A stretch of 55,543 nucleotides of DNA from an uncultured Rhizobiaceae group bacterium. Its GTDB lineage: Bacteria > Pseudomonadota > Alphaproteobacteria > Rhizobiales > Rhizobiaceae. The notes beneath the pieces were generated by a model, which had not been told where the DNA came from, did no database searches, and saw only the letters and a list, made by a program, of their open reading frames with translations. The position numbers and the translations under genes were made by a program. The stretch spans positions 1 through 55,543 of the forward strand of contig CALIOE010000125.1 of NCBI GenBank assembly GCA_938044775.1. Reading direction: 5' to 3'. Shown piece after piece: positions 29,089 through 54,273 of this stretch (the stretch's first letter is position 1; each line of letters begins with the position of its first letter).

Positions 29089-30663
29089 ATGAGTGATCCA
29101 GGCGCTCTCAAGACCGATCCAAGTCCGAAAGTCAGACGCGGCCGAAGCGGTGGTCGTCTCGGCAATGCACGCCGCGGCGGCACGGTAATAAAGCAAGACG
29201 AATGGCGCATTCCCTACAATCCAGACCGGCCCACCGAACCGGTCGATCAGGAAGGCGTCGAAAAAATTCACGACACGGCCATGCGGATCCTTGAAGAAAT
29301 CGGCATCGAATTTCTGAACGACGAAGCGACCGCAATTCTCAAGGCCAATGGAGCCACTGTATCCGGGACAAATGTGCGCATGGATCGCGCCATGGTGATG
29401 GAAAAGATCGCTCTGGTTCCATCGGTATTTTCGCTGACACCACGCAATCCTGACAGAAAGCTCACAATTGGTGGCAGCAACATCGTCTTCGGCAATGTAT
29501 CCAGCCCACCCAATTGCTCCGACCTTGATACAGGAAGGCGAACGGGCACATTTGAGGACTACAAAAACTTCATCAAACTGACCCAGTATTTCAACTGCAT
29601 TCATTTTGCCGGCGGGTATCCGGTAGAGCCGATGGATATCCATCCATCGGTACGCCACCTGGATTGTCTTTACGAAAAACTGACGCTCACTGACAAAGTG
29701 GTTCACGCCTATTCATTGGGCAAGGAACGCGTCGAAGATGTCGTGGAGATGACCCGGATAGCCGGTGGTCTCACGCACGAAGAATTCGATGCCACGCCCC
29801 GCATGTACACCAATATCAATTCGACCTCTCCGCTGAAGCACGACCAGCCGATGTTGGACGGACTGATGCGGCTGGCGCGTCGCGGCCAACCCACGATCGT
29901 CACCCCATTCACGCTGGCCGGTGCGATGGCACCGGTTACAATGGTCGGAGCGGTAACCCAGTCGCTGGCTGAGGGACTGGCCGCGATCGTTCTCGCGCAA
30001 TGCATAAAACCAGGCGTTGCAGCCGCCATTGGCACTTTTACATCAAACGTGGATATGAAAACCGGCGCTCCGGCCTTTGGTACACCGGACTATGTGCGTG
30101 CCACACAGATTACCGGTCAGATGGCGCGCTATTACGGGCTGCCGATGCGTTCATCCGGCGTCTGCGCCGCCAATGTGCCCGATGGGCAGAGCATGTGGGA
30201 GTACATGTTCTCCATGTGGGCCTCGATCACTTCCGGCACAAACGTCGTCTATCACGCGGCCGGCTGGCTGGAAGGCGGCCTTTGCGCCTCATACGAAAAG
30301 TTCATCATGGATTGCGAAGTTTTGCAGGCCTTCCAGTCATACTTTCAACCGATGGAAGTGAACGATGAAACACTGGGCCTGGAAGCCATCAGGGAAGTTG
30401 GATCGGACGGCCACTTTTTTGGCATCCAGCATACCCAGGATCGCTATGAAACGGCTTTTCACGCGCCGTTCCTCTCAGACTGGTCGAATTTCGAGAATTG
30501 GCGCGACCGCGGCAGTGTCTGGACTGCGCAGCGGGCCAACACAATGTGGAAGCAAATCCTGCAGGAGTTCGAACCGCCACCCATGGACGAATCTATCAAA
30601 GAAGAGCTTGAAGCCTTTGTTGCCAAGCGCAAGGAAGAAGGCGGAGCACCAACGGATTTTTGA
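29089..30663 (+). CDS. MttB-family corrinoid-dependent methyltransferase, non-pyrrolysine (paralogue 1)
   Basis: A 524-residue TIM-barrel methyltransferase of the trimethylamine methyltransferase superfamily. The frame has no internal TAG, so it is not a pyrrolysine enzyme; such homologues (MtgB and relatives) demethylate quaternary amines such as glycine betaine, proline betaine or carnitine. Conserved blocks: ILEEIGIEFLNDEA, FGTPDYVRATQITGQMARYYGLP, VYHAAGWLEGGLCASYEKFIMDCE and GSDGHFFGIQHT. Residues 14-32 form a basic Gly/Arg leader (KVRRGRSGGRLGNARRGG). GGAGGG lies 10 nt upstream of the ATG. It heads an operon with an MDR enzyme, a dimethylglycine dehydrogenase-like protein and a PhyH oxygenase. 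The substrate is not determined. Confidence 0.9.
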   Translation: MSDPGALKTDPSPKVRRGRSGGRLGNARRGGTVIKQDEWRIPYNPDRPTEPVDQEGVEKIHDTAMRILEEIGIEFLNDEATAILKANGATVSGTNVRMDRAMVMEKIALVPSVFSLTPRNPDRKLTIGGSNIVFGNVSSPPNCSDLDTGRRTGTFEDYKNFIKLTQYFNCIHFAGGYPVEPMDIHPSVRHLDCLYEKLTLTDKVVHAYSLGKERVEDVVEMTRIAGGLTHEEFDATPRMYTNINSTSPLKHDQPMLDGLMRLARRGQPTIVTPFTLAGAMAPVTMVGAVTQSLAEGLAAIVLAQCIKPGVAAAIGTFTSNVDMKTGAPAFGTPDYVRATQITGQMARYYGLPMRSSGVCAANVPDGQSMWEYMFSMWASITSGTNVVYHAAGWLEGGLCASYEKFIMDCEVLQAFQSYFQPMEVNDETLGLEAIREVGSDGHFFGIQHTQDRYETAFHAPFLSDWSNFENWRDRGSVWTAQRANTMWKQILQEFEPPPMDESIKEELEAFVAKRKEEGGAPTDF

Positions 30664-30669
30664 GAGCAA

Positions 30670-31794
30670 ATGACAACGCAAACAATGCAGGCAATTTTAC
30701 TGACTGGACATGGTGGGCTGGAGAAGCTGACCATTGATGCCGGCTATCGCAGACCGGAGCCGGCAGCGGATCAGGTCCTGATCGAGGTTGGTGCAGCAGG
30801 CATCAACAACACCGACATCAACACCCGCATAGGCTGGTATTCGAAATCAGTTTCATCCGAGACCGGCTCAGGAGCCGCAGGTGGCTTTGACGACGTTGAG
30901 GCAGCCGATGCCAGCTGGTCGGGTGCAGCCCTTGAGTTCCCGCGAATCCAGGGAGCGGACGTTTGCGGAACAATCATCGGTGTCGGGAAAAACGTCTCGC
31001 GGCAAAGGATTGGAGAACGGGTCATTGTCCGCTCCATGCAGCCGGATGAGCCTGGCCCTCAAGGGCTTTCCTGCAAAACGTTCGGATCGGAATTTGACGG
31101 TGGTTTTGCGGAATTTGCCGTGGCGAGAAGCGATATGGCGTTGGCCATTAAAAGTGACATGTCTGACGCCGAACTTGCTTCGTTTCCCTGCGCTTATTCC
31201 ACCGCGGAGAACATGTTGGAGCGGATCGGCCTGCGCTCTGAAGATCGGATCCTTGTGACCGGGGCTTCGGGAGGGGTAGGCTCTGCTGCGGTTCAACTGG
31301 CCAGACGTCGGGGATGCACGATCACAGCCATCGCATCCAGGTCTAAGCATGCCTTCGTACGTGATCTGGGCGCTGAACGGGTCATCGACCGGAACTGCGT
31401 GCTGCTTGATGAGGTCGACCCGATGAGCATCGACGTGGTTGTCGATCTTGTTGCCGGGAAGCAATGGCCCCAATTGCTTCAGATCTTAAAGCGCGGCGGA
31501 CGCTATGTTACCGCTGGCGCGATTGCAGGACCGATTTGTGAAATCGATATTCGCACACTCTATCTGAGTGATCTGACTCTGGCCGGAAGCACCTATCAAC
31601 CACCGCAGGTTTTCGAGAACCTCGTTCGCTACATCGAAGACAGCGAAATTCAACCGGTTGTCTCAAAACTCTACCCGTTCTCAGCAATTGCTGAAGCGCA
31701 AACCGACTTCATTGAAAAGAGATATCCCGGCAAACTTGTTTTGGTTCCGGATGTGAAATTTGCTGCCGCAGCCGCAATTGGAGAAACGACATGA
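30670..31794 (+). CDS. MDR-family NAD(P)-dependent oxidoreductase
   Basis: A 374-residue medium-chain dehydrogenase/reductase. The GroES-like half has QVLIEVGAAGINNTDIN and FPRIQGADVCGTIIGVG. The Rossmann half has VTGASGGVGSAAVQLARRRG (about residues 196-215) and LVAGKQWPQLLQILKRGGRYV. The first half carries a longer Gly/Ser/Asp-rich insertion after INTRIGWYS than is usual. The structural zinc cysteines are not evident, so quinone-reductase-like or zinc-lacking chemistry is possible. It starts 6 nt after the MttB gene and overlaps the next gene by 4 nt, so its substrate is probably an intermediate of the same pathway. Confidence 0.85.
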   Translation: MTTQTMQAILLTGHGGLEKLTIDAGYRRPEPAADQVLIEVGAAGINNTDINTRIGWYSKSVSSETGSGAAGGFDDVEAADASWSGAALEFPRIQGADVCGTIIGVGKNVSRQRIGERVIVRSMQPDEPGPQGLSCKTFGSEFDGGFAEFAVARSDMALAIKSDMSDAELASFPCAYSTAENMLERIGLRSEDRILVTGASGGVGSAAVQLARRRGCTITAIASRSKHAFVRDLGAERVIDRNCVLLDEVDPMSIDVVVDLVAGKQWPQLLQILKRGGRYVTAGAIAGPICEIDIRTLYLSDLTLAGSTYQPPQVFENLVRYIEDSEIQPVVSKLYPFSAIAEAQTDFIEKRYPGKLVLVPDVKFAAAAAIGETT

Positions 31795-34253
31795 AATCTC
31801 ACGCACAAGCAGTGGTTGTCGGCGGGGGAGTCGTTGGCTGTTCGGTTCTTTATCACCTGACAAAGGCCGGCTGGAAAGACGTTGTTTTGCTCGAGCGGGA
31901 CCAGCTCACCTGCGGCTCCACGTGGCATGCAGCCGGTGGGTTTCATGCTCTGAATGGTGATCCCAACGTCGCCAAACTGCAGGCCTATACAGTTGGACTT
32001 TACAAGGAACTCGAAGAGATTTCAGGCGAAACCTGCGGTCTCCATCTGACTGGCGGGGTCGCATTGGCCGACACGCCTGAGCGTCTCGAGTGGTTGAAGA
32101 TGAGCCATGCACGTGGTCGTTATCTCGGGATGGAAACGGAGATGATATCGGTGGCCGAGGCCAAGGAAAGGCTGCCGCTGCTGGAGGAAAAATACTTCGT
32201 CGGCGCTATGTGGGATCAGATCGAGGGTCATCTGGACCCCTATGGCACCACCAACGCCTATGCCAAAGCCGCCAGGATCGGCGGCGCAGAAATAGAGCTG
32301 CAATGCAAGGTCGAAGAGCTCAACTGGGACGAGGCCAGGGGAGTTTGGAACATCACCACCAGTAAGGGCTCGATGACAGCGGACCATGTTGTCAATGCCG
32401 GCGGCCTGTGGGCGCGCGAAGTCGGTCGCATGGTCGGCGTTGAGTTGCCGGTATTGGCCATGGAACACCACTATTTGCTGACGGAAGCCATGCCCGAAGT
32501 GGCTGAAATACAGGCGGCTACCGGAAAAGAAGTGGTCCACGCGATTGACTTTTCCGGGGAAATTTATTTGCGCCAGGAACGCGACGGCATGCTGCTCGGC
32601 ACCTATGAAAAGGCGGCAACGCCCTGGTCACCAAAGGACACACCCTGGGATTTCGCACAGGAACTGCTGGAGCCAAATCTCGACCGCATAGCCCCCTCGC
32701 TGGAGGTTGGTTTCAAGCATTTTCCGGCCTTCGAAAAGGCCGGAATTCGCCGCATCGTCAACGGCCCGTTCACTTTTGCACCAGACGGCAATCCGTTGGT
32801 GGGTCCGGTGCGGGGTATTCCGAATTACTGGTCCGCATGTGCTGTTATGGCGGGCTTCTCGCAAGGCGGAGGCGTCGGACTTGTCCTGTCTGAATGGATG
32901 GTCAACGGCGACCCTGGATACGATATTTGGGGCATGGACGTTTCCCGGTTTGGACCGCACATTACCCGTGACTATACCAATGCAAAGGTGCGCGAAAATT
33001 ACTCGCGACGCTTCAGCATCCGTTTTCCAAATGAAGAACTACCAGCCGGAAGACCGCACCAGACCACGCCACTTTACGATGTCCACCTGGCCAAAGGTGC
33101 CGTTATGGGGGACTCCTGGGGCCTTGAAACACCGCTCTGGTATGCACCCGAGGGGGTTGAGCCGGTCGATGTCTTCTCGTTCCACAGATCAAATGATTTT
33201 GAGCATGTGAAGGCCGAGGTGACGAACTGCCGGGAAAACGTCGGTATCACCGAGATATCCAATTTTGCGAAATACGAAATCACGGGTTCCGGTGCCCGCG
33301 CCTGGCTTTCCCATGTGATGACGAATTTTGTACCAAAGCCAGGTCGAATTGCGTTGACGTCAATGTGCAACAACGATGGCAAGATTATCGGCGATTTCAC
33401 GATTTGCGGAGCCGGTGCAGACGGTGGAGACGGCGAACGTTTTCAGATGTTTGGATCGAGTCAGGCGCAGATTTATCATATGCGGTGGTTCGAAGCCCAC
33501 CTGCCTGATGACGGCTCTGTGTCAATACGCAATCTTGATCTTGGACTGACCGGGCTTTCCATTGCCGGGCCGAATGCGCAGCGGGTTTTGGCAAAGCTTT
33601 CTGACGAAGATTTGTCCAATGATTCATTCAAATTCATGGACTTCAGAGAGATGACTGTTGCTCGCGTTCCGGCCATGATCAACCGCATTTCTTATACCGG
33701 CGACCTCGGTTACGAGATTTGGGTGAAGCCGGAATTCCTGCGTCGCTTGTACGATGGAATCATGGCGGCGGGAGCGGAGTTCGAGATCAAACCTTTCGGC
33801 ATGCGGGCGCTGCTCAACATGCGTCTCGAGAAGCATTTCGGCACCTGGTTCCGCGAGTTTCGTCCAATCTATTCGCCGTTCGAGGCAGGCCTCGACAGAT
33901 TTGTCTCGCAAAAGAAGAACGACTTCATCGGTCGCACTGGCGTTTTCGCCCACAAAGACAGTCCGCCGCTGACCCGTATTTGCCTCAACGTGATCGGAGC
34001 AGCCGATGCTGATTGCATCGGCGACGAGCCGATCTCTCTTGGCGGCAAGGTGATTGGCTGGATTACATCCGGCGGTTATGGCCATTACGTCGGTCAGTCT
34101 CTCGCGACCGGCTACATTCCCACTGAGCATTTGGCGGAAGCGCGCAAGGTTGGAGTGGAGGTTGAAATCATCGGCGATATGTGTGCCGCTGAAATTCAGG
34201 ACGAACCGCCTTTTGACCCGCAGGGCAGACGCATGCGTGGAGACTTCAGCTAA
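31791..34253 (+). CDS. Dimethylglycine/sarcosine dehydrogenase-like protein (FAD oxidase + GcvT domains)
   Basis: An 820-residue two-domain enzyme of the DMGDH family. Residues 7-20 hold the FAD motif VVVGGGVVGCSVLYHL, and GSTWHAAGG has H46 at the place of the covalent-flavin histidine of dimethylglycine dehydrogenase. The DAO-type domain runs to about residue 390 (NPLVGPVRGIPNYWSACAVM). From about 430 a folate-binding GcvT-like domain follows (ITEISNFAKYEITG, SYTGDLGYEIWV-type block, GKVIGWITSGGYG). Such enzymes oxidise N-methyl groups and pass the carbon to tetrahydrofolate. The location behind an MttB gene suggests oxidation of the tertiary amine left after demethylation. The exact substrate is open. 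Confidence 0.88.
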   Translation: MKSHAQAVVVGGGVVGCSVLYHLTKAGWKDVVLLERDQLTCGSTWHAAGGFHALNGDPNVAKLQAYTVGLYKELEEISGETCGLHLTGGVALADTPERLEWLKMSHARGRYLGMETEMISVAEAKERLPLLEEKYFVGAMWDQIEGHLDPYGTTNAYAKAARIGGAEIELQCKVEELNWDEARGVWNITTSKGSMTADHVVNAGGLWAREVGRMVGVELPVLAMEHHYLLTEAMPEVAEIQAATGKEVVHAIDFSGEIYLRQERDGMLLGTYEKAATPWSPKDTPWDFAQELLEPNLDRIAPSLEVGFKHFPAFEKAGIRRIVNGPFTFAPDGNPLVGPVRGIPNYWSACAVMAGFSQGGGVGLVLSEWMVNGDPGYDIWGMDVSRFGPHITRDYTNAKVRENYSRRFSIRFPNEELPAGRPHQTTPLYDVHLAKGAVMGDSWGLETPLWYAPEGVEPVDVFSFHRSNDFEHVKAEVTNCRENVGITEISNFAKYEITGSGARAWLSHVMTNFVPKPGRIALTSMCNNDGKIIGDFTICGAGADGGDGERFQMFGSSQAQIYHMRWFEAHLPDDGSVSIRNLDLGLTGLSIAGPNAQRVLAKLSDEDLSNDSFKFMDFREMTVARVPAMINRISYTGDLGYEIWVKPEFLRRLYDGIMAAGAEFEIKPFGMRALLNMRLEKHFGTWFREFRPIYSPFEAGLDRFVSQKKNDFIGRTGVFAHKDSPPLTRICLNVIGAADADCIGDEPISLGGKVIGWITSGGYGHYVGQSLATGYIPTEHLAEARKVGVEVEIIGDMCAAEIQDEPPFDPQGRRMRGDFS

Positions 34254-34282
34254 GGACGGTATTGAGAAGACAGGAGGGGCAA

Positions 34283-35065
34283 TTGAATCTCACACAGAAA
34301 TACCAGACCAGCGGTTTCGTTTCCCCGATCGCTCTCATTGAGCCTGCGGAAGCGGCCGGTCATCGCGCTAAGCTGGAAGCCGTTGAGGCGCAGCATGGCG
34401 ATCTTCACTACAAATCAAAGATGCACACATTGCTCGATTTTGCGGCCGACCTCGCCACGCGCGAAAACGTATTAGACACAGTTGAGCAGCTGATCGGCCC
34501 TGACATAATGTTGTTTGATGTGACCTACATCATCAAAGAGCCTCACTCCGCCTCCCATGTCAGCTGGCACCAGGATTTAACCTATTGGGGCCTGTCAAAC
34601 GACGAGCAGGTTTCCATGTGGCTGGCACTTTCACCGGCGACGGAAGTGTCCGGTTGCATGCGCATGGTGCCCGGCAGCCATAAGCAGGGGAAACTGGAGC
34701 ACACGGATACGCAGGATCAGACAAACGTACTTTTCCGCGGTCAATCGGTCGTCGGCATCGCCGAAGAGGAGGCCGTCATGTGCCCGCTGCAGCCCGGCGA
34801 AGCGAGCTTTCACCACGGTTGGACGCTGCATGCTTCTATGCCCAATCAAAGCGACGACCGGCGCATCGGCTTCAATGTTCAGTATATCAATCCGTCAGCA
34901 GCACAGACCCTGCACAATCTCGACACCGCAACCCTGGTGCGGGGCAAAGATCGGTTCAACCACTACGCGGCCGACGAATTTGCGACCGGCGCCATGACCC
35001 CCGAAGCGGCCGCCAGACACGCCGAGCTTGAGAAATTGCGCAAAGAAACCTGGGCCAGCGCGTGA
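34283..35065 (+). CDS. Phytanoyl-CoA dioxygenase (PhyH) family Fe(II)/2-oxoglutarate oxygenase
   Basis: A 260-residue cupin-fold oxygenase. The iron facial triad is visible as H96-x-D98 in SHVSWHQDLTYW plus a distal histidine near residue 183 in HHGWTLHASMP; the arginine that binds 2-oxoglutarate is in DDRRIGFNVQYI. PhyH relatives hydroxylate small N-methyl compounds as well as acyl-CoAs. I chose a TTG start at 34283 because an excellent GGAGGGG lies 4-10 nt upstream; an earlier TTG at 34262 has none. Fourth gene of the MttB operon, so the substrate is probably the same methylated amine or its precursor. Confidence 0.85.
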   Translation: MNLTQKYQTSGFVSPIALIEPAEAAGHRAKLEAVEAQHGDLHYKSKMHTLLDFAADLATRENVLDTVEQLIGPDIMLFDVTYIIKEPHSASHVSWHQDLTYWGLSNDEQVSMWLALSPATEVSGCMRMVPGSHKQGKLEHTDTQDQTNVLFRGQSVVGIAEEEAVMCPLQPGEASFHHGWTLHASMPNQSDDRRIGFNVQYINPSAAQTLHNLDTATLVRGKDRFNHYAADEFATGAMTPEAAARHAELEKLRKETWASA

Positions 35066-35188: not shown

Positions 35189-35788
35189 GTGGACGCCCGT
35201 TTTGCCAAAAATGTTGCCCGTCACATTCATGAGGATATGAATTTCGTAAAAACCTGGGTGGCGCGACCGAAGACCACGGGTGCGGTTCTGCCAACAAGCC
35301 GGTACACCGCCAAAAGAATGGCCAGTGTTATCGATCCGTCGAACGGTGCTAAGGTGCTGGAGCTGGGTCCGGGAACGGGGTCTATAACCAAAGCTATCAT
35401 TGAGCGCGGCGTAAAGCCGGAAAACATCTATTCCGTCGAGTTCAACGCCAGCTTTGTGCCAAGTTTGCGTCAAAAGTACCCGGGGGTGAACTTCCTGCAG
35501 GGCGATGCTTTTGCGCTGAGAAATCATCTGCCCGACATGGCGGGCAACAATTTTGAGGCGGTCATATCGGGCCTGCCTCTGTTGAACTTTCCAGTCCAAA
35601 AGCGGGTCAAGCTTCTGTTGTCTCTGTTTGGCTGGGTAAAACGGGGAAATCCTGTCGTACAGTTCAGCTACGGGGCTATGTCACCCATCCCAAAGCGACC
35701 CGGATCTTACCAGGTCAATTCCCTGGAGTGGATTGTGCGCAATGTACCGCCAGCGCGTATCTGGACCTATCGGCAGACCATCAGATAG
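35189..35788 (+). CDS. pmtA: Phospholipid N-methyltransferase, Sinorhizobium PmtA type (paralogue 1)
   Basis: A 199-residue SAM methyltransferase of the class that converts phosphatidylethanolamine to phosphatidylcholine in rhizobia. NFVKTWVARPKTTGAVLPTSR at the N-terminus, the SAM motif VLELGPGTGSITKAI (about residues 57-71), VISGLPLLNFP and VQFSYGAMSPIP all match PmtA. The GTG start at 35189 has GAGAGGA about 6 nt upstream. It is followed 93 nt later by a second gene of the same family. In vivo this protein could methylate a different head group or step. Confidence 0.88.
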   Translation: MDARFAKNVARHIHEDMNFVKTWVARPKTTGAVLPTSRYTAKRMASVIDPSNGAKVLELGPGTGSITKAIIERGVKPENIYSVEFNASFVPSLRQKYPGVNFLQGDAFALRNHLPDMAGNNFEAVISGLPLLNFPVQKRVKLLLSLFGWVKRGNPVVQFSYGAMSPIPKRPGSYQVNSLEWIVRNVPPARIWTYRQTIR

Positions 35789-35881
35789 CCGGAAGGTCCG
35801 GGCTGCAACACAATCATGCCGAATTCTTTTCGTTACTTTGGGTGTCCGGAATGAACACCTCTGTTTCAGAAAGACAATTCT

Positions 35882-36481
35882 ATGAACAACAGCAGCAGAG
35901 GCGCTGGAACCAGGCGAATCGAAGACAACATCCGGTTCTTTCGCACCTGGATCGACAATAAGAGAGCTTTGGGCGCGCTGCTCCCTACCAGCAGCGTTAC
36001 GGCCAAACGCATGGCCAGCGTTGTCGAGGCAGAGACCAATGAACCGGTTGTCGAGCTGGGTCCCGGCACCGGCGTTATTACAAAGGCACTCCTGGAAAAG
36101 GGTGTGAGACCCGAGAACCTGCACTCAATCGAGGTGGTTGAAGACTTTATCCCGCAACTGAGCCGGGATTTTCCGGAGGTCGAGATCATTCATGGAGACG
36201 CGTTCCACGTGGCGGATATTCTGAGCCGTTTTACGGGCCAGGTGAACACAGTCATTTCGGGAATACCCTTGCTCAACTTCCCACTTGAAACACGACTGAC
36301 CTATCTCGACAATCTGTTCAAGTTGCTGAAACCGGGCCGCCCCGTTGTTCAGATCAGCCACGGCCCTCTTTCACCCATTCCCGCGGGCAAAGGACCCTAC
36401 AGTGTCGAACCCCTGGACTGGGTTTTTCGTAACATTCCGCCCGCCAGGCTGTGGCTCTACCGCGGGACCGCCGGCGGATAG
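35882..36481 (+). CDS. pmtA: Phospholipid N-methyltransferase, PmtA type (paralogue 2)
   Basis: A second 199-residue PmtA-type methyltransferase. NIRFFRTWIDNKRALGALLP, VVELGPGTGVITKALLEKGVRPENL, VISGIPLLNFPLETRLTYL and VQISHGPLSPIPAGKGPYSVE match the family. It shares the full layout of the preceding protein but has diverged clearly, so the pair is an old tandem duplication. The 3' end overlaps the convergent renalase-like gene by 25 nt. Two copies may divide the successive methylations, or one may act on another lipid. Confidence 0.88.
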   Translation: MNNSSRGAGTRRIEDNIRFFRTWIDNKRALGALLPTSSVTAKRMASVVEAETNEPVVELGPGTGVITKALLEKGVRPENLHSIEVVEDFIPQLSRDFPEVEIIHGDAFHVADILSRFTGQVNTVISGIPLLNFPLETRLTYLDNLFKLLKPGRPVVQISHGPLSPIPAGKGPYSVEPLDWVFRNIPPARLWLYRGTAGG

Positions 36482-37449: not shown

Positions 37450-37454
37450 ATGGT

Positions 37455-40253: not shown

Positions 40254-40287
40254 GGTGCTCTCTTTCAATTGACGGAATGTCGCCGTG

Positions 40288-40656: not shown

Positions 40657-40666
40657 TTTGAGTTCC

Positions 40667-41995: not shown

Positions 41996-42181
41996 CGGCC
42001 AAAGCCGGACAGCGCGCAGAGGTTATTCGACTCCATTGTCGTTGTCATCACCCAAAACACCTGACGCACGAAAAAGTGCATTTCTGGCCGAACCGCAATT
42101 GCGGCATGCCAAATGACGCCTTTCCTACAGCGCAGCAAACTGCCCGCAGGCAGAATCGTTCAGCAATTGGGAGAGCATGCC

Positions 42182-45566: not shown

Positions 45567-45610
45567 CAGTAATTGAAATGCGGAATCTGTAATTTCCGCA
45601 GGAGGAAGAC

Positions 45611-46645
45611 TTGTCGGGTCCGCTAAAATCACTGCTCAATGAAAAGGGTGTTCTGCTCGCCGACGGCGCAACCGGGACTAACTTCTTCAATATGGGATTG
45701 CTTTCCGGCGACGCGCCGGAACTGTGGAATGAGGACGCGCCAGAAAAGGTGACCGCATTGCATCAGAGTTTTGTCGATGCTGGTTCCGACATTATTTTGA
45801 CCAACACCTTCGGCGGCAATCGAAACAGGCTCAAGCTGCATAACGCTCAGGACCGGGCACGGCAGCTTAACAAAAAGGCTGCGGAAATTGCGCGTTCGGT
45901 TTGCGATCAAGCCGGCAAGAAGGTTCTGGTGGCGGGTTCGGTTGGCCCAACCGGGGAGCTTTTTGAGCCGCTGGGCGAACTGACCCACGCTGCAGCGGTT
46001 GAATCCTTTACCGAGCAAATGATCGGATTGAAGGAAGGCGGAGCCGATGTGCTGTGGATTGAGACCATGTCTGCAAAGGAAGAAATCGCAGCAGCGGCAG
46101 AAGCGGCAAGCAAGGTTGGTCTGGAGTATATTTTCACCGCCAGCTTCGATACGGCCGGCCGCACCATGATGGGCATCGCACCATCCGCACTCGGCGATAT
46201 TGCGCAAGAAATGTCACCTCCCCCCGTTGCAGTTGGCGCAAATTGCGGCGTCGGTGCGACTGACCTGCTGTTTTCGGTTCTCGATATGACAGAAACCGGA
46301 GCCACGGCAGAAGGAGGGACTATTGCCGTTATCGCCAAGGCAAATTGTGGCGTCCCCAGGGTCAGCGGCGACCAGGTGATCTATACCGGAACACCCGAAT
46401 TGATGGGCGAATACGCCAAACTGGCGATCGACGCCGGCGCCAAAATCATAGGCGGATGCTGCGGAACAGCTCCTGAACACCTTGTGGCAATGCGCACAGC
46501 CATCGATGAGCACGCAAAGCGCGACAGACCATCGCTCGATACGGTCGTGGCGGCCACTGGTGAACTTGTTAATCAGATCGCTGCTGCAAAGTCCGAATCT
46601 GCCGATGAACCTCGGACAGGGCGCCGCCGGGGGCGCCGCCGTTAA
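45611..46645 (+). CDS. bmt: Homocysteine S-methyltransferase, betaine-homocysteine type
   Basis: A 344-residue zinc-dependent TIM-barrel enzyme that methylates homocysteine to methionine. LLADGATGTNFFNMG and ILTNTFGGNRNRL start the barrel. The zinc cysteines are in VGANCGVG (one) and IGGCCGTAPEHL (two). The C-terminus is a basic tail (GRRRGRRR). Bacterial members can use glycine betaine, S-methylmethionine or possibly a methyl-corrinoid. I chose the TTG at 45611 because GGAGGA lies 4 nt upstream. Two MttB genes and a corrinoid protein in the window make it a possible methyl acceptor of that system, but direct betaine use is equally consistent. Confidence 0.88.
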   Translation: MSGPLKSLLNEKGVLLADGATGTNFFNMGLLSGDAPELWNEDAPEKVTALHQSFVDAGSDIILTNTFGGNRNRLKLHNAQDRARQLNKKAAEIARSVCDQAGKKVLVAGSVGPTGELFEPLGELTHAAAVESFTEQMIGLKEGGADVLWIETMSAKEEIAAAAEAASKVGLEYIFTASFDTAGRTMMGIAPSALGDIAQEMSPPPVAVGANCGVGATDLLFSVLDMTETGATAEGGTIAVIAKANCGVPRVSGDQVIYTGTPELMGEYAKLAIDAGAKIIGGCCGTAPEHLVAMRTAIDEHAKRDRPSLDTVVAATGELVNQIAAAKSESADEPRTGRRRGRRR

Positions 46646-46647
46646 GC

Positions 46648-47298
46648 TCAGACAAACGCGGCCATGTGAAAGGCCTGCTGTTCGGGCTCGTAGGCGAAAG
46701 CCTTACCAACCGGGCAAGCATGCCGCGCAATACAGCCTCCAGACCGGCATTTTAGGCCCGATTCAGAGCCGACGTGGCTGCGGCAATCCTGGTAGGCGTA
46801 GGTCTCGTTCTTGAAGGCTTCTACCGGGCATGCGCTAAGGCAGGGCATTTCCTCACAATTGTCGCATGGGTGCAATTCGGCATGATTGACCGGAATCTCA
46901 AAGCTCTCAGAAAACACCAGCGCAACACGAAACGCCGTCCATAATCCATATTCTGGATGCACCAACAGGCCAATCGGCGATTGCTGCATACCTGTGGCGG
47001 CCCGCGCATAGTTCTGGAACGGCCACCGAGGTTCTCCAAAAGGAAAACGAGGCTCGGCATTCATGTCCTCCGCGAGAGGCTGGACGACGTGCTTTGTCCA
47101 ACGATCCATGGCGTCGGGCGCGCCGTCTGCATAGTGGTCCGAGCCTATAAAGGCCGACCAAAGACTGCTGCCAATATTGCCAACAAGCAATGCAGATCGG
47201 TCGTTTTCCGCTCTGAACCAGCCGAAGGGCGAGAGTCCGTGGGGGGCGAGCAGCAAACGGGCTCGGTTTTGCAGATGGTCGGAGCGGGAGAAAGACAT
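46648..47298 (-). CDS. 4Fe-4S ferredoxin-type protein, QueG-related
   Basis: A 216-residue protein. HPCDNCEEMPCLSACPVEAF and GGCIARHACPVGKAF supply the cysteines for iron-sulphur clusters in the arrangement seen in the ferredoxin half of epoxyqueuosine reductase (QueG). It is far shorter than QueG (about 350-380) and lacks its C-terminal HEAT-like part, so it is not called queG. It may pass electrons to an unknown partner, possibly a corrinoid enzyme, since QueG itself binds cobalamin. It ends 2 nt from the convergent methyltransferase gene. Confidence 0.72.
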   Translation of the reverse strand: MSFSRSDHLQNRARLLLAPHGLSPFGWFRAENDRSALLVGNIGSSLWSAFIGSDHYADGAPDAMDRWTKHVVQPLAEDMNAEPRFPFGEPRWPFQNYARAATGMQQSPIGLLVHPEYGLWTAFRVALVFSESFEIPVNHAELHPCDNCEEMPCLSACPVEAFKNETYAYQDCRSHVGSESGLKCRSGGCIARHACPVGKAFAYEPEQQAFHMAAFV

Positions 47299-47339
47299 GG
47301 TCCCTTCTCCCGCATTTCAAAGTGCGCGTCGAGACGCCG

Positions 47340-49430
47340 TCAGTTTTTCCCCAAACTACCTGCAAGCCGCACAAGTTGCACAAAAGCGCTGCGATAGCCG
47401 AACGCATCGGTGCCCCGGGAATCGGCTGCGAGGTCAGCGATTTCTTTGTAGCTGTAGTCGCTCGTCGCCGGATTGCCGCGCAGTTTTTGACCGAATGCAG
47501 CAACAGCGGAGGCAAACCGTGCTTCCGGCGGAAAGACACCGTCGCCATTCGGGCCAAGGGAGGAATTGTCGGGATTTATGACGGGTTCACTCAACAACCG
47601 GCTGTTACTTTCGTTCGGCAGTTTGTAGCGAATCTTGAGAAAACCAATTTCGCCATAGGGATTGTCTGCTGGCTTCACCTTCGCCTCACCGTAGCGCAAC
47701 GGATCTGTTAGAACCGCCCGACTGCCAACCGGCGTAATTTCATAGATCGCGGTCACCGAATGTCCGGCACCGATGTCTCCGGCGTCGACCTTGTCATTGT
47801 TGAAATCCTCGCGCTTGAGCGCCCGGGTTTCATAGCCGATTAACCGGTATTCGGCGATCTTCGACGGGTCGAATTCCAGCTGCAGTTTCACATCCTTAGC
47901 AATTGGAAACAGGGTTCCGCCCGCTTCTTCGACCATAACTTTCTGGGCTTCTGAAAGCGTATCGATATAGGCCGCCTGGCCGTTACCGTTTTGAGCAAGA
48001 GTTTGCATAAGCGTGTCATTGGTGTTGCCCGTGCCAAAACCGAATACCGAAAGGAACACACCGGATTTCCGTTTTTCGGCTATGAAATTCTTCAGGCGCT
48101 CCGGTTCAGAAATACCCACATTGAAGTCGCCATCGGTGGCCAGCATCACCCGGTTGACACCGTCCTTGACAAAGTTCTCCTCGGCCAGCTTGTAGGCACG
48201 CTCAATGCCTGCCCCGCCGGCGGTGGAGCCGCCTGCCTGCAAATTTTCAAGCGCGGCGAAGATTTTTGCCTTGCTCGAAGCCTTTGTCGGCTCGAGAACC
48301 ACACCTGCAGCCCCGGCATAGGTAACGATGGACACCGTATCGTCCGGATTCAGTTTGTTCAGCAACAGTCGGAACGATTTGATCAACAAGGGTAATTTGT
48401 CGGCGCTGTTCATTGAGCCCGACACATCCAGCAGAAATACAAGATTGGCTTTGGGCTGCGCAGCGGGCGGCAAATCGAAGCCCTTGATGCCGATATGCAG
48501 CAGATTGGTGTGCTGGTTCCAAGGCGTTGGCGTGACAGTAATGTTCGCTTTGAACGGTTGCTCGCGGTTTTCCGGCAGCACATAGTCGTATTCAAAATAG
48601 TTCACCAGCTCTTCCACACGTACCATGTCCTTTGACGGCAATTGCCCCGCCAGCAAGGCGCGCCGCACGCGCGAATAGGAGGCAGTGTCGACATCGATTG
48701 AAAATGTCGAAACCGGTTGTTGCAGGACGGATTTGACACCATTGGAATTAAATTCGGGATATTTTTCGCGGTCGCCCCGAACCCGGCTTTGACCTGGGGT
48801 ACCAGGTGTGAAAACGGATTTTACGCGACCGCGACCCACCTGGGACTTTCGCTCCGGATAGGCTTCCGTCAGATCCACAGGGGAACGACCGGCACTGTCG
48901 GCACGTTGTTCGAGACCTGGTTTGGGCGAAGCATAACCAGGAGACGCCCCTGGCGATGCAGAACTGCCATCTGCTTCCGCTGCCGGCACCGGTTCAGCTG
49001 CAACATCTGCGTCCGCCATCTCGAGCTTTGCGGCGGGTTTGGCAGGTTTAGCGCTGGCGGGAGCAGTTTCGTTGGTCGCGAGCCCGCCAACGGGCTCGAC
49101 TCGCTCAATTTGCCGGCGATCCTGATCAAATATCTGCCATGCGACCACCCCCCCCAGCGGCAGCAGGCAGGCACCGCTGAGCAGTGCCATCGTGGCAGGT
49201 TTCAGGTTCCAGACCGGTTTGGCAACGTTATTCATCAAAGCTCTCCATATCCTTGTGGTTATGGAGGTAGGACGATCCGCATCCGTTGATCCTTGGGTTG
49301 CGTCACCGCTGTTTTCGACCGCAGCGGCATCAAACGCGTCCATCGCTGAGATGGCAGCACGTTCGCGGGCATCTTTGGCGGGGACAGGCGGCTGAAGCCT
49401 TGCCAGTCTTTCGAGATCGAGATCGGTCAC
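47340..49430 (-). CDS. Membrane-anchored VWA-domain protein, YfbK-like
   Basis: A 696-residue protein. Residues 1-77 are cytosolic and acidic (MTDLDLERLARLQPPVP...). A single membrane helix follows at about 78-100 (ATMALLSGACLLPLGGVVAW), then a Pro/Ala-rich linker, a VWA-associated N domain (TFSIDVDTASYSRVRRALL), the VWA domain with MIDAS motif DVSGSM near residue 340, and a C-terminal DUF3520-type region ending DAFGYRSAFVQLVRLA. The first 4 nt overlap the ECF sigma gene. By position and topology the cytosolic N-terminus could bind the sigma factor, making this a candidate anti-sigma/sensor; that is inference. Confidence 0.85.
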   Translation of the reverse strand: MTDLDLERLARLQPPVPAKDARERAAISAMDAFDAAAVENSGDATQGSTDADRPTSITTRIWRALMNNVAKPVWNLKPATMALLSGACLLPLGGVVAWQIFDQDRRQIERVEPVGGLATNETAPASAKPAKPAAKLEMADADVAAEPVPAAEADGSSASPGASPGYASPKPGLEQRADSAGRSPVDLTEAYPERKSQVGRGRVKSVFTPGTPGQSRVRGDREKYPEFNSNGVKSVLQQPVSTFSIDVDTASYSRVRRALLAGQLPSKDMVRVEELVNYFEYDYVLPENREQPFKANITVTPTPWNQHTNLLHIGIKGFDLPPAAQPKANLVFLLDVSGSMNSADKLPLLIKSFRLLLNKLNPDDTVSIVTYAGAAGVVLEPTKASSKAKIFAALENLQAGGSTAGGAGIERAYKLAEENFVKDGVNRVMLATDGDFNVGISEPERLKNFIAEKRKSGVFLSVFGFGTGNTNDTLMQTLAQNGNGQAAYIDTLSEAQKVMVEEAGGTLFPIAKDVKLQLEFDPSKIAEYRLIGYETRALKREDFNNDKVDAGDIGAGHSVTAIYEITPVGSRAVLTDPLRYGEAKVKPADNPYGEIGFLKIRYKLPNESNSRLLSEPVINPDNSSLGPNGDGVFPPEARFASAVAAFGQKLRGNPATSDYSYKEIADLAADSRGTDAFGYRSAFVQLVRLAGSLGKN

Positions 49431-50002
49431 CGTATCACTGCCCTTTCCGCTAGTGCTTGTTGTTGCTCTGTCAGAGCCCTGAGTTGTTTCTTGGCTTCAT
49501 TTATCCGCCACGACACTGTGCCCTCCGCACATTCCAGTGCCGAAGCAGCTTCCAGATGCGACAGCCCCTCTCCGTAGACCAACATCACAGCATCGCGCAG
49601 TTTGGGGGCCAGCTGCCGCACATGTGACCACAGTTCCTGCAACGCATCTTCCTCGTCGCTGGCTTCTGCATCCTGGACGTCCGGGCGGTTCGGATCTGCA
49701 GCCCAGTCGTCGAGCTTTCGCTTCTTGCTGGCATCGGCGCGCTGATGATCCCGCACAGCGTTGATGACAACGCGGTACAGCCAGGTGCTGAACCTGGCCT
49801 CGCCGGTCCAGGTGCGGATGGACCTACCCAACCTTACACAAACATCCTGGGTGATGTCCTCGGCGTCTTCGCGGTTTCCGCAAAGCTTCCAGGCCACCCG
49901 GAAAATCATGTCGTAGTGGCGGGAAACCAGCGCGGCAAAGCCCGCCCGATCTCCAGCAACCGCGCGCTCTACCAGCTCATGATCTTCGGCACTGTTTTGC
50001 AT
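49427..50002 (-). CDS. ECF-type RNA polymerase sigma factor
   Basis: A 191-residue sigma-70-family protein. Region 2 is DMIFRVAWKLCGNREDAEDITQDVCVRL and region 4 is LAPKLRDAVMLVYGEGLSHLEAASALECAEGTVSWRINEAKKQLR (both cited in part only). A linker rich in Asp and Glu separates them. It is followed in a 4-nt overlap by a membrane VWA protein, the usual position for an anti-sigma factor. No clear autoregulated promoter was identified in the 283 nt upstream. Confidence 0.93.
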   Translation of the reverse strand: MQNSAEDHELVERAVAGDRAGFAALVSRHYDMIFRVAWKLCGNREDAEDITQDVCVRLGRSIRTWTGEARFSTWLYRVVINAVRDHQRADASKKRKLDDWAADPNRPDVQDAEASDEEDALQELWSHVRQLAPKLRDAVMLVYGEGLSHLEAASALECAEGTVSWRINEAKKQLRALTEQQQALAERAVIR

Positions 50003-50285: not shown

Positions 50286-51845
50286 TCAGGTAAACGCGTC
50301 GGGCATCGATTCCTTTTTTGTCGCCACGTAGGCGTCAAGCGCCTCCCGGGTTCCCGGATCCATTTCCGGTGCAACGTAATCGGCAATCCACTTGCGCGCC
50401 GTCTCGTTGGCCCGTTGTGGCGCAGATTTCTCACCCTCTACTTCCCATTGCTCGAATGAATTATTGTCGGCGATGGTTGAGCGGTAGAATGCGGTCTTGA
50501 AGTTTGCCTGCGTATGGGCGGCCCCGAGGTAGTGGCTGCCCTCGCCCAATCCAACTTCGCGAATAGCGTCCATGGCCTGACCGTTTTCGTCAATCGCGAC
50601 GCCGGCGGCCATCTTTTGCTGCGCTGCAAGCTGATCGCAATCCATAACGAATTTCTCGTAGGAACTGACCAGACCGCCCTCCAGCCATCCGGCGGCATGA
50701 AGCGCAAAATTGACACCCCCAAGCAGCGTTGGAGTCAGAGTGTTTGCACTTTCGTAGGCCGCCTGTGCATCTGGCAGTTTCGAACCTGTCAGCGAACCGC
50801 CCGACCGGAAGGGCAATCCAAACTTACGGGCAAACTGAGCAGCGCCGTACAGGACCTGAGCAGGTTCGGGAGTTCCGAATGCCGGCGCTCCAGATTGCAT
50901 GGATATCGACGTCGCAAATGTGCCCATAACCACGGGAGCACCGGGCCGGCACAATTGCGAGAACGCTATTGCCGCCTGTGCCTCTGCAAGAACCTGTGTC
51001 AGCGTGCCTGCAACGGTTACGGGAGACATGGCGCCACCGACAATGAATGGCGAAATGATGCAGGCCTGTCCTGCCCGGGCATAGACCTTTAGCGCTCCCA
51101 GCATCGTGTCGTCCATGACAAGCGGCGAGTTGATGTTGATCAGCGAGGTCACGACACAATTGTTGTCGACATAATCCTCGCCAAACAGGATTTTTGACAT
51201 CTCGACGGTATCCTGTGCCCGTTCAGGGGCGGTTACCGACCCCATGTAAGGCTTGTCGGAGAGCGTCATATGGGCGTGAACCATGTCCAGGTGCCGCTTG
51301 TTGACCGGCACATCTCCGGGCTCGCAAACCGTGCCACCGCTGTGATGCATAGCAGGTGCCATATAGGCCAGTTTCACGAAGTCGCGAAAATCCTCCATGG
51401 TCGCATAGCGTCGCTCGCCGTCCAGAGTGCGCACAAATGGAGGACCGTAGACGGGTGCAAATACGGTGTTTTTCCCGCCGATTTCGACACTGCGTGCCGG
51501 GTTCCGAGCTTGCTGCGTGAACTGCCCAGGCGCGGTTTTCATCAATTCCCGGCACAGCCCTTTGGGAAAATGGATCCGCTCGCCCTGGACGTCCGCGCCT
51601 GCATCCTTCCACATGGTCAGAGCCTCGGCATCGTCGCGAAACTCGACGCCGACCTCCTCCAGCACAATGTCCGCATTGCGTTCGATGATCTCCAGCGCTT
51701 CATCATCGAGAATCTCGTACTCTTTTATCTTTCGCTGAATATACGGAAACTGTTCGAGGCTGGCACTGCCTCTCTCAGCGCGCCGCGCTGACGCGCCGCC
51801 ACCGCCACGCCCGCGTCGTCTGCCTTCGTTTGCTGCTTCGGCCAT
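50286..51845 (-). CDS. MttB-family corrinoid-dependent methyltransferase, non-pyrrolysine (paralogue 2)
   Basis: A 519-residue TIM-barrel methyltransferase of the same family as the protein at 29089-30663. Shared blocks include a SPF(I)VGGAMSPVTVAGTLTQ-type segment, SGAPAFGTPEPAQVLYG, LHAAGWLEGGLVSSYEKFV and GSHYLGAAHTQANF. There is no in-frame TAG. Residues 8-28 form a Gly/Arg-rich basic leader (GRRRGRGGGGASARRAERG). The two paralogues diverge enough to imply different substrates. It lies about 830 nt from the corrinoid protein gene, on the other strand and separated from it by a cytochrome gene. Confidence 0.9.
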   Translation of the reverse strand: MAEAANEGRRRGRGGGGASARRAERGSASLEQFPYIQRKIKEYEILDDEALEIIERNADIVLEEVGVEFRDDAEALTMWKDAGADVQGERIHFPKGLCRELMKTAPGQFTQQARNPARSVEIGGKNTVFAPVYGPPFVRTLDGERRYATMEDFRDFVKLAYMAPAMHHSGGTVCEPGDVPVNKRHLDMVHAHMTLSDKPYMGSVTAPERAQDTVEMSKILFGEDYVDNNCVVTSLININSPLVMDDTMLGALKVYARAGQACIISPFIVGGAMSPVTVAGTLTQVLAEAQAAIAFSQLCRPGAPVVMGTFATSISMQSGAPAFGTPEPAQVLYGAAQFARKFGLPFRSGGSLTGSKLPDAQAAYESANTLTPTLLGGVNFALHAAGWLEGGLVSSYEKFVMDCDQLAAQQKMAAGVAIDENGQAMDAIREVGLGEGSHYLGAAHTQANFKTAFYRSTIADNNSFEQWEVEGEKSAPQRANETARKWIADYVAPEMDPGTREALDAYVATKKESMPDAFT

Positions 51846-51974: not shown

Positions 51975-52436
51975 TTATTTCTTTTTGCGAAAATCACGGT
52001 GGCAAGCTTTACAAGTCGCGCCTATCGCCTCGAACTGGGTTTGGATATCTTCCTTTGAGGCGGCCGACTTGGCATTGACAACAAGTTCGGCTGTTGCCTG
52101 GCGTAGCTCTTCGGCGATCTTTGAGAATTCGTCCGGCCGTTCCCAGATCGTGGGGATTGCTTCGCTGGGTCCATGAATGCTGTCTGCTGGAAACAATCGA
52201 ACGATGTCGGCGGCATGTTTCTCAAGATCCGTTGCGTTTTCAATCACCCGGTTACGGGCTGCCGGCACATCGCTCCAGTCGGCATTGGCCATGCCCTTCA
52301 TAGCGGCTGCAATGGACTTCATCGCTTCCATCCGCTCCTTCACGATGCCTGTTGCACCGGTATGAGCGATGGCGCCCGCAGCCAGCGCGATCCATCCACA
52401 CAGGCACAATCCCAATATCTGAATTCTGGTGCTCAT
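51975..52436 (-). CDS. Class II cytochrome c (cytochrome c'-like), periplasmic
   Basis: A 153-residue protein with a signal peptide (MSTRIQILGLCLCGWIALAAGAIAHT) and a C-terminal haem site CKACHRDFRKKK, the hallmark of four-helix-bundle class II cytochromes. IVKERMEAMKSIAAAMKGMA is the typical first helix with the conserved RxxxM pattern. Roles in NO binding or periplasmic electron transfer are known for the family. The ATG at 52436 has GAAAG upstream. It is divergent from the corrinoid protein gene. Confidence 0.92.
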   Translation of the reverse strand: MSTRIQILGLCLCGWIALAAGAIAHTGATGIVKERMEAMKSIAAAMKGMANADWSDVPAARNRVIENATDLEKHAADIVRLFPADSIHGPSEAIPTIWERPDEFSKIAEELRQATAELVVNAKSAASKEDIQTQFEAIGATCKACHRDFRKKK

Positions 52437-52677
52437 TCTTTCGTTTCCACTCCACAAACAGCGGCGTTCAGATTAGCACAATATTCCTGTCTGCGTCATG
52501 CTTCCATTCGGGATGCCTGCTGGTGAAGGGGCGGATAAGGCTGTATTTTTCCATCAGCATCCGCTTTCAGGTGCATTAAGTCGCAATCGTCTCCGACAAG
52601 GTCGTTTTATGAAACGTTGACCTTTGTTATAGAGAATTAGCCTCTTGAATGCTCAGGGCCCAGCTGGAGACTTTTCC

Positions 52678-53376
52678 ATGTCCGATGAAGAAGAGATTAT
52701 TCTCTCCGAACTCAATGATGAAGAGCTCGTCCTGCAGATGCACGACGATCTGTATGACGGCCTGAAAGAAGAAATCGAAGAAGGCACCAACCTCCTGCTT
52801 GGGCGGGGTTGGCAGCCCTATGATGTGCTGACCAAAGCGTTGGTCGAGGGAATGCGTATTGTCGGAGAAGATTTTCGCGACGGTATTCTATTCGTTCCCG
52901 AGGTTTTGCTGTCGGCGAACGCAATGAAAGCAGGTATGGCAATCCTGAGACCGTTGCTTGCGGAAACCGGAGCTCCGAAGGTTGGCAAGATGGTCATCGG
53001 CACAGTGAAGGGCGACATTCACGATATTGGCAAGAATTTGGTGGCCATGATGATGGAGGGCGCCGGTTTCGAAGTGATCAATATCGGCATTAACAACCCG
53101 GTCGAAAACTATCTGGACGCGATTGAGGAGCACCAGCCCGACATTATTGGAATGTCTGCGCTGCTGACCACCACAATGCCTTACATGAAGGTGGTCATCG
53201 ACACATTGATCGAAAAAGGCATCCGCGACGACTATACGGTCCTGGTTGGCGGCGCACCGCTGAACGAGGAATTCGGAGAGGCCATCGGCGCGGACGCCTA
53301 TTGCCGGGATGCGGCCGTGGCGGTGGAAACCGCAAAAGAGTTCATGGCGCGCAAGCACAACCAGCGCGTTGCCTGA
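52678..53376 (+). CDS. MtbC/MttC-type corrinoid-binding protein
   Basis: A 232-residue methyl carrier. A helical cap (residues about 20-100, with FRDGILFVPEVLLSANAMKAGM) precedes a B12-binding Rossmann domain. The cobalt-ligating motif is D113-I-H115-D-I-G118 in TVKGDIHDIGKN, with SALLTTTM and LVGGAPLN as the further corrinoid contacts. Such proteins receive a methyl group from MttB-family enzymes and hand it on. I chose the ATG at 52678 (GGAGA about 9 nt upstream) over a TTG at 52645. It is the only such carrier in the window, against two MttB homologues, so it may serve both. Confidence 0.94.
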   Translation: MSDEEEIILSELNDEELVLQMHDDLYDGLKEEIEEGTNLLLGRGWQPYDVLTKALVEGMRIVGEDFRDGILFVPEVLLSANAMKAGMAILRPLLAETGAPKVGKMVIGTVKGDIHDIGKNLVAMMMEGAGFEVINIGINNPVENYLDAIEEHQPDIIGMSALLTTTMPYMKVVIDTLIEKGIRDDYTVLVGGAPLNEEFGEAIGADAYCRDAAVAVETAKEFMARKHNQRVA

Positions 53377-53454
53377 GCAGTTGGACGTTAAGTTCCGTTC
53401 CAGTCCGCCGCCCCCTGCCCGGCCTGGCGGACTTGGTTGGTACGGCGTAATTTG

Positions 53455-53598
53455 TTAATTGGCGACGTCGTTGACGCTATCTGCAACAGCGTCGGCTGTG
53501 TTGGAAACATCTTTTCCAACGCCCCGGATCGTGTTTGCGCAACCCGCCACTGCGAAAGTAAGGACCAGCACCAGCACCACAGACAATTTGTTTTTCAT
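53455..53598 (-). CDS. Entericidin A/B-like small lipoprotein
   Basis: A 47-residue protein, MKNKLSVVLVLVLTFAVAGC then ANTIRGVGKDVSNTADAVAD. The lipobox VAGC ends the signal sequence; the short amphipathic mature part fits the entericidin EcnA/EcnB family of outer or inner membrane lipopeptides. GGGA lies about 8 nt before the ATG at 53598; an ATG two codons earlier (53604) is possible. It lies between the corrinoid protein and DUF1638 genes on the opposite strand and is probably unrelated to them. Confidence 0.8.
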   Translation of the reverse strand: MKNKLSVVLVLVLTFAVAGCANTIRGVGKDVSNTADAVADSVNDVAN

Positions 53599-53655
53599 CG
53601 ACATATTCCCAAAATTTGAACGCCTCTTGGCGTTATCCTGAATATCGGCACAAAG

Positions 53656-54273
53656 ATGGCCAACGAGACAAAGAAATCGGACAGATCAGAAAATATTCGG
53701 GTCATTGCCTGTGGAGCGCTGGCCCGGGAGATTCTGGCTGTCTGCGATGCCAACCGTTTGGACCACATTGATCTCGTCTGTCTACCGGCAATACTGCACA
53801 ATCACCCCGAGAAAATCCCGGACGCTGTCGATCAGGCGATTTGTGAGGCACAAAGCCTTGGATTCCAGAAGATATTCATCGCCTATGCCGACTGTGGCAC
53901 CGGTGGACTGCTGGACAGGATTTGCGCGAAACACGGGGTCGAACGCATTGCGGGACCGCATTGCTACTCGTTTTTTTGGGGCAATAATTCCTTTGCCGAG
54001 CGGCATGAGGACGACATTCACAGCTTCTTCCTGACGGATTTTCTGGCCCGCCAGTTTCGGGCCTTCATGATTGATCCTCTCAAGCTCGACAAACATCCTG
54101 AACTGATTGAGATGATGTTCGGCAATTACAAAAAGCTGGTCTATCTGGTTCAGGAACCGGACCCCCAATTGGATGCCAGAGCGGAGGATGCCGCCAGGTT
54201 CCTTGGGCTGGAATATGAGCGTCGGGAAACCGGATATGGCGACCTCGTACCAGCGCTCCGCGACCTCAAGTAG
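53656..54273 (+). CDS. DUF1638 protein
   Basis: A 205-residue cytosolic protein of DUF1638. Three conserved cysteine sites stand out: VIACGALAREI (about residue 19), IAYADCGTGGLLD (about 79) and IAGPHCYSFFWG (about 103), and LPAILHNHPEKIPDAV is a further family block. The family recurs beside MttB and corrinoid protein genes and is suspected of a role in that methyl transfer, but no activity is established. Here it follows the corrinoid gene (with one antisense lipoprotein between them). The cysteines could bind a metal or a corrinoid. Confidence 0.85.
   Translation: MANETKKSDRSENIRVIACGALAREILAVCDANRLDHIDLVCLPAILHNHPEKIPDAVDQAICEAQSLGFQKIFIAYADCGTGGLLDRICAKHGVERIAGPHCYSFFWGNNSFAERHEDDIHSFFLTDFLARQFRAFMIDPLKLDKHPELIEMMFGNYKKLVYLVQEPDPQLDARAEDAARFLGLEYERRETGYGDLVPALRDLK

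Follow-up and report, generated by a model that had tools for sequence, protein, structure and literature searches.

The contig analysed here (CALIOE010000125.1, or C125; 55,543 nt, hereafter the window), together with the rest of the 4.18-Mb Rhizobiaceae group assembly to which it belongs (GCA_938044775.1; 168 contigs, 92.4% complete), very probably encodes an aerobic MtgBCDE system with local variations, in which MttB-type methyltransferases would pass methyl groups to a single corrinoid carrier protein, MtgC. Such a system was already in print in 2025: Ruegeria pomeroyi depends on one corrinoid protein, MtgC, to demethylate glycine betaine and likewise to synthesise methionine (Mausz et al. 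2025, PMC12478193; what is cited from this paper and from Price et al. 2018, PMC5764234, is taken from excerpts of them). The proposal, drawn from proteomics and mutants, is that MtgB, MtgC and MtgD demethylate glycine betaine and that MtgC, MtgD and MtgE make methionine; mtgC and mtgD mutants fail in both roles, and a supply of methionine does not restore their growth on glycine betaine (PMC12478193). The family calls given below are Pfam, NCBIfam, Rfam, PDB and PHROGs matches, with bit scores set against model cut-offs.

Two MttB-superfamily methyltransferases, 38.8% identical to each other, are encoded in the window: MttB1 (29089–30663, + strand; PF06253, 723.7 bits) and MttB2 (50286–51845, − strand; PF06253, 752.7 bits). 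Both are pyrrolysine-free. The pyrrolysine-dependent trimethylamine methyltransferase (MttB sensu stricto) was rejected as an assignment, since neither frame has an internal stop and the scores against the pyrrolysine-type model TIGR02369 (287 bits for MttB1, 255 for MttB2) lie below the cut-off of 525. Among structures, both proteins score higher with 4yyc, a putative trimethylamine methyltransferase (364 and 837 bits), than with 2qne (327 and 391 bits). MttB2 is the best candidate for MtgB, and MttB1 is predicted to be a quaternary amine:corrinoid methyltransferase. The carrier MtgC (52645–53376, +) is of the MtbC type (PF02310 and PF02607); its top NCBIfam match is an MtgC model, at 209 bits below the cut-off of 370, and its corrinoid motifs DIHDIG, MSALL and VGGAP are intact. 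It is the sole MtbC-type protein that a PF02310 search found in the genome. Likewise, only one DUF1638 protein was found (53656–54273, +; PF07796, 101.6 bits, cut-off 27), which is a probable partner in corrinoid reactivation. No PDB relative of DUF1638 was detected by sequence at E ≤ 1, and because its single-sequence AlphaFold2 model is poor (mean pLDDT 49.5) we make no claim about its fold. A homocysteine methyltransferase module, MtgE/Bmt, lies at 45611–46645 (+).

The remaining components are found together on another contig, C4, where the pterin-binding methyltransferase MtgD (L015:2862–3899, +) stands beside MetF (L015:1778–2674, −) and is followed by a RamA/AcsV-like activase. Of the aerobic set, the genome has pyrrolysine-free MttB, MtgC, MtgD with MetF, MtgE, RamA and DUF1638. 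MetH was not found: the PF02310 search of the genome returned only MtgC and a 763-aa frame that, read from its length alone, may be a methylmalonyl-CoA mutase (MetE was not sought).

The co-occurrence survey covered 114 genomes from the class to which the window belongs (taken to be Alphaproteobacteria), its own genome included; close homologues of at least 75% identity counted as MtgC, and neighbourhood counts used one MtgC per genome. MtgC and DUF1638 are each carried by 24 genomes, 23 of which are common to both. MttB and RACo/RamA, with 26 and 28 carriers, are present in all 24 MtgC genomes and in two and four further genomes, respectively. All four families occur together in 23 of the 114 genomes (22 leaving out the window's own), and five pairwise Fisher p-values are all ≤8.3e-20; the test assumes independent genomes, an assumption that does not hold strictly, and the DUF1638 genomes listed have different family labels. 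In 21 of the 24 MtgC genomes, no more than 2 kb separates DUF1638 from MtgC, and in 12 RamA is found within 12 kb of it. A long MetH-like frame (902–1242 aa) was seen in eight of the MtgC genomes and none in the other 16.

The same grouping is found in named genomes. In Sinorhizobium meliloti Ak57 (locus L138), whose MtgC is 82.8% identical to that of the window, the order is bmt–MttB–MtgC–DUF1638, and MetF, MtgD and ASKHA/RamA follow within ∼9 kb, so that the whole set spans ∼18 kb with other genes interspersed; the window instead has a dimethylglycine dehydrogenase-like (DMGDH-like) gene and a glycine cleavage block. On a Paracoccus methylovorus plasmid, MttB, MtgC, DUF1638, MetF, MtgD and ASKHA/RamA are also grouped, and in both organisms MttB adjoins MtgC in the same orientation. 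By gene families, not by direct sequence comparison, R. pomeroyi DSS-3 shares with the present genome MttB, MtgC, MtgD, MtgE, DUF1638, RamA and MetF, several MttB paralogues and, in the excerpts, a failure to find MetH (PMC12478193). Different here is that one 55 kb contig bears MttB2, MtgC, DUF1638, MtgE, the DMGDH-like gene, gcvTHP, formate dehydrogenase and genes for B12, with MtgD, MetF and RamA together on another. Pyrrolysine-free MttB proteins with an MtbC-type carrier, which several MttBs may share, are also reported for Desulfitobacterium hafniense (MtgABC) and for the MttB-superfamily enzymes of Eubacterium limosum; these are anaerobes, unlike the aerobic system proposed here (PMC12478193).

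By homology with R. pomeroyi, an MttB protein, with MttB2 the best candidate and MttB1 a second donor, would take a methyl group off glycine betaine, or off a comparable quaternary amine, and load it onto the cob(I)alamin of MtgC. MtgD would then move the methyl group onto tetrahydrofolate, and the adjoining MetF would begin its oxidation towards formate and formate dehydrogenase. Run in reverse, MtgD would charge MtgC and MtgE would convert homocysteine to methionine, so that one carrier would serve both catabolism and methionine synthesis; such a dual role fits the failure to find MetH in this genome. DUF1638 and RamA may help to bring oxidised cobalamin back to its active state. They are predicted to recharge the cofactor in R. 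pomeroyi (PMC12478193), and in Phaeobacter inhibens DUF1638 and a RamA-like protein are tied to methionine synthesis, mutants of both requiring methionine (Price et al. 2018, PMC5764234). The dimethylglycine produced would be broken down via glycine by the DMGDH-like fusion and gcvTHP, whose family assignments are clear. As an osmolyte, glycine betaine is abundant in the sea. One locus here combines predicted demethylation with the breakdown of glycine, the oxidation of formate and the synthesis of B12, in keeping with the 2025 model and in a genome that is not that of a roseobacter.

A sequence-only reading of the window had proposed, for positions 29089–54273, an aerobic corrinoid-based demethylation hub. 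Each gene that it named is borne out by family matches: two MttB homologues without pyrrolysine, one MtbC-type corrinoid protein, DUF1638, a homocysteine methyltransferase, a DMGDH-like protein, glycine cleavage genes, formate dehydrogenase and, beside them, a B12 synthesis cluster. The cytochrome c' that it took, with oxygenase genes, as a sign of an oxic setting is real (51975–52457, −, between MttB2 and MtgC; PDB 1a7v, E 7e-10; C-terminal CKACH), and the oxygenase-like genes are a PhyH protein and a desaturase. The route it suggested, in which an aerobe uses MttB with an MtbC-type carrier to demethylate a quaternary amine and oxidises what is left, has been proposed for glycine betaine with the same gene families in R. 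pomeroyi (PMC12478193). A lack of co-occurrence across genomes was part of what that reading would have taken as refutation, and the survey above showed the opposite. The likely biochemistry was thus essentially right. Two corrections apply to the hub span: it also includes several genes that have no evident link to the system, and the pterin methyltransferase, MetF and RamA, which that reading missed, are sited elsewhere in the genome. It also missed that the corrinoid protein, DUF1638 and the homocysteine methyltransferase belong to a split methionine synthase as well; MtgC would accordingly have two jobs.

Several observations weigh against the assignment to an aerobic MtgBCDE system. MtgD, MetF and RamA lie outside the window, together on C4. 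The absence of MetH is provisional because the genome is 92.4% complete, and it could be an assembly gap in a genome of 168 contigs. One surveyed genome (G093) has MtgC without DUF1638 and another (G107) has DUF1638 and RamA without MttB, and no more than 10 of the 24 MtgC genomes have an MttB within 12 kb of the carrier gene (a second MtgC in G104 would add one). The PmtA pair, the vWA/ECF sigma pair and the desaturase described below fall within the span without evident link to the system. Finally, the association of MttB1 with the DMGDH-like gene is local: such a gene, counted at 45% identity or more, is near MttB1 in only four of 80 loci, some of them short.

The last point bears on what MttB1 does. 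MttB1 is the first gene of an apparent operon with a zinc-type alcohol dehydrogenase family protein (30670–31794, +; PF00107/PF08240), a dimethylglycine/sarcosine dehydrogenase-like FAD-GcvT fusion (31791–34253, +; PF01266, PF16350, PF01571 and PF08669), which is closest to human dimethylglycine dehydrogenase 5l46 (566 bits) with the STWHAAG stretch conserved in the alignment, and, last of the run, a PhyH-type oxygenase (34262–35065, +; PF05721, 106 bits). Homologues of MttB1 were taken as 80 kept out of 595 relatives, some or many of whose loci are short and end at contig ends; in named genomes they are 66–82% identical and mostly Rhodobacterales by title. The best matches are two metagenome-assembled genomes of uncultured Rhizobiaceae group bacteria, L020 and L021 (81 and 82%), both of which share the iron-type alcohol dehydrogenase and DMGDH-like genes with the window; L021 also has its formate dehydrogenase and a counterpart of its zinc-type alcohol dehydrogenase (63%), and L020 its PhyH and gcvP genes. 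In the loci laid out, MttB1 homologues are flanked by genes other than those of the window. A widely conserved MttB1 operon was accordingly rejected: beyond the four DMGDH-like neighbours, a zinc-type alcohol dehydrogenase and a PhyH gene are each near MttB1 in a single locus of the 80.

The substrates of MttB1 and MttB2 in this organism are inferred only, and a variant of the same system, in which MttB2 handles glycine betaine and MttB1 takes another quaternary amine or a sulfonium compound, is a possibility that we take seriously but think less likely than not. The modest identity of the two proteins and the neighbours of MttB1, among them an alcohol dehydrogenase and a PhyH oxygenase, speak for it, as does a DddP-like M24 enzyme. 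This enzyme is encoded in the window at 42113–43567 (DMSP lyase DddP model, 510 bits, below the cut-off of 600; M24 structure 4rzy, 428 bits), and its homologues (40–54% identity) adjoin MttB1 in three of the 80 loci (L024, L031 and L078). The DMGDH-like gene in the MttB1 operon and in four of the 80 loci points the other way, to a dimethylglycine product.

It is improbable that only a split methionine synthase (MtgC, MtgD, MtgE, DUF1638 and RamA) works here and that the MttBs are unrelated neighbours. MtgC, MtgE and DUF1638 do match methionine synthesis genes of P. inhibens, whose homocysteine module, corrinoid protein, pterin module, RamA-like protein and DUF1638 are all common to the present genome, and which the excerpts discuss for methionine synthesis and not for betaine demethylation (PMC5764234); the wide spacing of MttB and MtgC in most genomes would also suit this explanation. 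However, every MtgC genome in the survey has an MttB, the two genes are adjacent in S. meliloti Ak57 and P. methylovorus, and the R. pomeroyi mutants fail on glycine betaine despite methionine (PMC12478193). That MtgE is a true betaine-homocysteine methyltransferase (BHMT), demethylating glycine betaine directly without a corrinoid, can be set aside as highly implausible: the NCBIfam model PRK07534, which bears that name, is passed (507.5 bits, cut-off 338), but MtgE scores higher against 1q7m, the homocysteine module of MetH (144.5 bits), than against BHMT structures (at most 48 bits), and the S. meliloti-type protein is reported, in the excerpts of Mausz et al., to be without betaine-binding residues (PMC12478193).

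MttB-family genes number up to seven per genome (PMC12478193). The present genome has six, two in the window and four elsewhere, without internal stops and with pairwise identities of 23–44%. MttB3 (L018:10459–16933, contig C124) is surrounded by an aldehyde dehydrogenase, a DapA-family protein, an FAD oxidase and a regulator, a neighbourhood which we liken to hydroxyproline breakdown; hydroxyproline betaine as its substrate is our guess, and an open-licence literature search gave no paper pairing that compound with a trimethylamine methyltransferase. MttB4 (L019:4781–14332, contig C141) has a sulfatase, a TRAP-TAXI transporter and an FAD oxidase nearby. MttB5 and MttB6 (L016:3316–12062 and L017:5609–15156, contig C18) are a divergent pair, 44% identical to each other and 23–30% to the rest; two DMGDH-like fusions and a homocysteine methyltransferase are near the former, and a TRAP transporter and a DMGDH-like fusion near the latter. 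These neighbourhoods suggest that different MttB substrates would feed one carrier, which would make MtgC a hub, and the six together provide testable guesses at further substrates.

What is new here lies outside the window, in copies of MtgC on tailed-virus contigs, and this is the part that deserves more work. Scanned with MtgC, IMG/VR yielded 14 contigs (L124–L137), with 14 different data-set numbers, whose MtgC is 81–85% identical to that of the window; an alignment-based viral scan gave 13 loci, all on contigs among those 14. None of the other window genes tested was found in the 14 loci. Single-protein scans of IMG/VR with DUF1638, MttB2, MtgD, MtgE and RamA gave no relative, such scans detecting close relatives only, and the phages collection held no close MtgC relative (21 records, best row 45.8% identity). 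In L134, MtgC stands directly between PHROGs tail tube and head closure genes, with tail sheath and terminase nearby. The corresponding open reading frames (ORFs) of L125 begin with the same residues, as do those of L124, which has one extra ORF before MtgC (only start residues were compared). A helicase-loader gene is near MtgC in L126, and single-strand-binding (SSB) and UvsX-like genes in L135. L127–L133 have other neighbours, few of them phage-labelled, and a terminase match in two of seven records. The two viral MtgCs scanned had no match to a PHROGs family.

A tree of 59 MtgC rows included 12 of the viral loci, which give ten distinct sequences; L136 and L137, being partial, were not used. 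The ten viral proteins form one clade, on one side of a branch (support 98/97). This clade adjoins five genomes of family f20 on a joint branch supported at 98/94, the f20 branch itself having only 95/77. Family f20 is probably Rhodobacterales, because the MttB1 homologue of one of its genomes (G018) has its best DNA match among the 80 loci in Thalassovita taeanensis (76%), a placement based on a single gene. All ten viral rows keep the corrinoid motifs unchanged, and dN/dS is 0.03–0.09 in nine virus–virus pairs, some of them with dS above 1; the sole virus–bacterium pair was saturated. The MtgCs of two virus groups are 88–91% identical in the rows shown, more than their terminases (59%), which suggests that mtgC may have been transferred between viruses.

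The 14 contigs might instead be bacterial fragments or chimeras misfiled as viral, which we consider unlikely. Five of them are short (4–7 kb), near neighbours carry no clear phage label for most of L127–L133, and the phrog_2 terminase was found in only four of nine records searched; the same search matches 11 of 14 ordinary control genomes, so that a terminase alone is weak proof of a virus. Against this stand the position of MtgC among structural genes in L134, with similar ORF starts in L125 and L124, the nearby helicase-loader, SSB and UvsX genes in L126 and L135, the 14 separate data-set numbers, and a GC content of mtgC of 37–41% on the viral contigs versus 54–56% in the two bacterial copies compared. 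In a further-reaching scenario, MtgC would be a control point of one-carbon flux. A single capture by marine tailed viruses would have brought its gene from a Rhodobacterales-like host into viruses, and later transfers would have spread it among their lineages; they would boost the transfer of osmolyte methyl groups to folate and methionine during infection by supplying only this subunit, leaving MttB, MtgD, RamA and DUF1638 to the host. We put this scenario forward as one with about equal weight for and against it, and 'marine' is a label deduced from the likely host. Should viruses use the same carrier, infection would draw on the point at which osmolyte use, B12 and methionine meet in marine bacteria, and MtgC as a limiting hub would become directly testable. 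An open-licence literature search on virus-borne corrinoid, B12-binding or betaine genes, judged by titles, openings of abstracts or passages, found no report of virus-borne MtgC.

The rest of the window includes genes assigned above to the later steps of the pathway. The glycine cleavage genes gcvT (40667–41743), gcvH (40288–40692) and gcvP (37455–40268) form a block on the − strand (37455–41743), with a tandem glycine riboswitch upstream of gcvT (41788–41996, −; two RF00504 matches, 59.9 and 56.1 bits, cut-off 32). Formate dehydrogenase alpha (22585–25392, −; TIGR01591, 715.7 bits, cut-off 666) and a NuoEF-like protein (25852–27552, −) are predicted to carry out the last step of one-carbon oxidation. 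Downstream of DUF1638, a choline-dehydrogenase-like GMC oxidoreductase truncated at the contig end (54346–55542, +; PRK02106, 412 bits for the partial protein, cut-off 605) is a possible source of glycine betaine. An ORF at 20165–20641 has no family match. Two adjacent PmtA-like phospholipid N-methyltransferases (35189–36481; 250 and 242 bits, cut-off 250) and a fatty-acid desaturase identified by Pfam (44541–45497) are also present.

The cobalamin synthesis cluster occupies positions 2–16424 (−) with a few other genes, and encodes CobJ, CobI, CbiET, CobH, CbiX, CobO, CobN, CobW, a CobU-type protein and CobQ. A cobalamin riboswitch lies within it (14660–14890, −; Rfam). Control of mtgC by such a riboswitch was rejected, as this is the sole Rfam cobalamin match above the gathering score. 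Two neighbouring TerB-family genes are located inside the cluster (5627–6457). Beside MttB2, an ECF sigma factor, a vWA/YfbK protein and an unnamed protein are encoded at 46648–50002, and a trio resembling them accompanies the MttB1 homologue in Oricola indica (L024).

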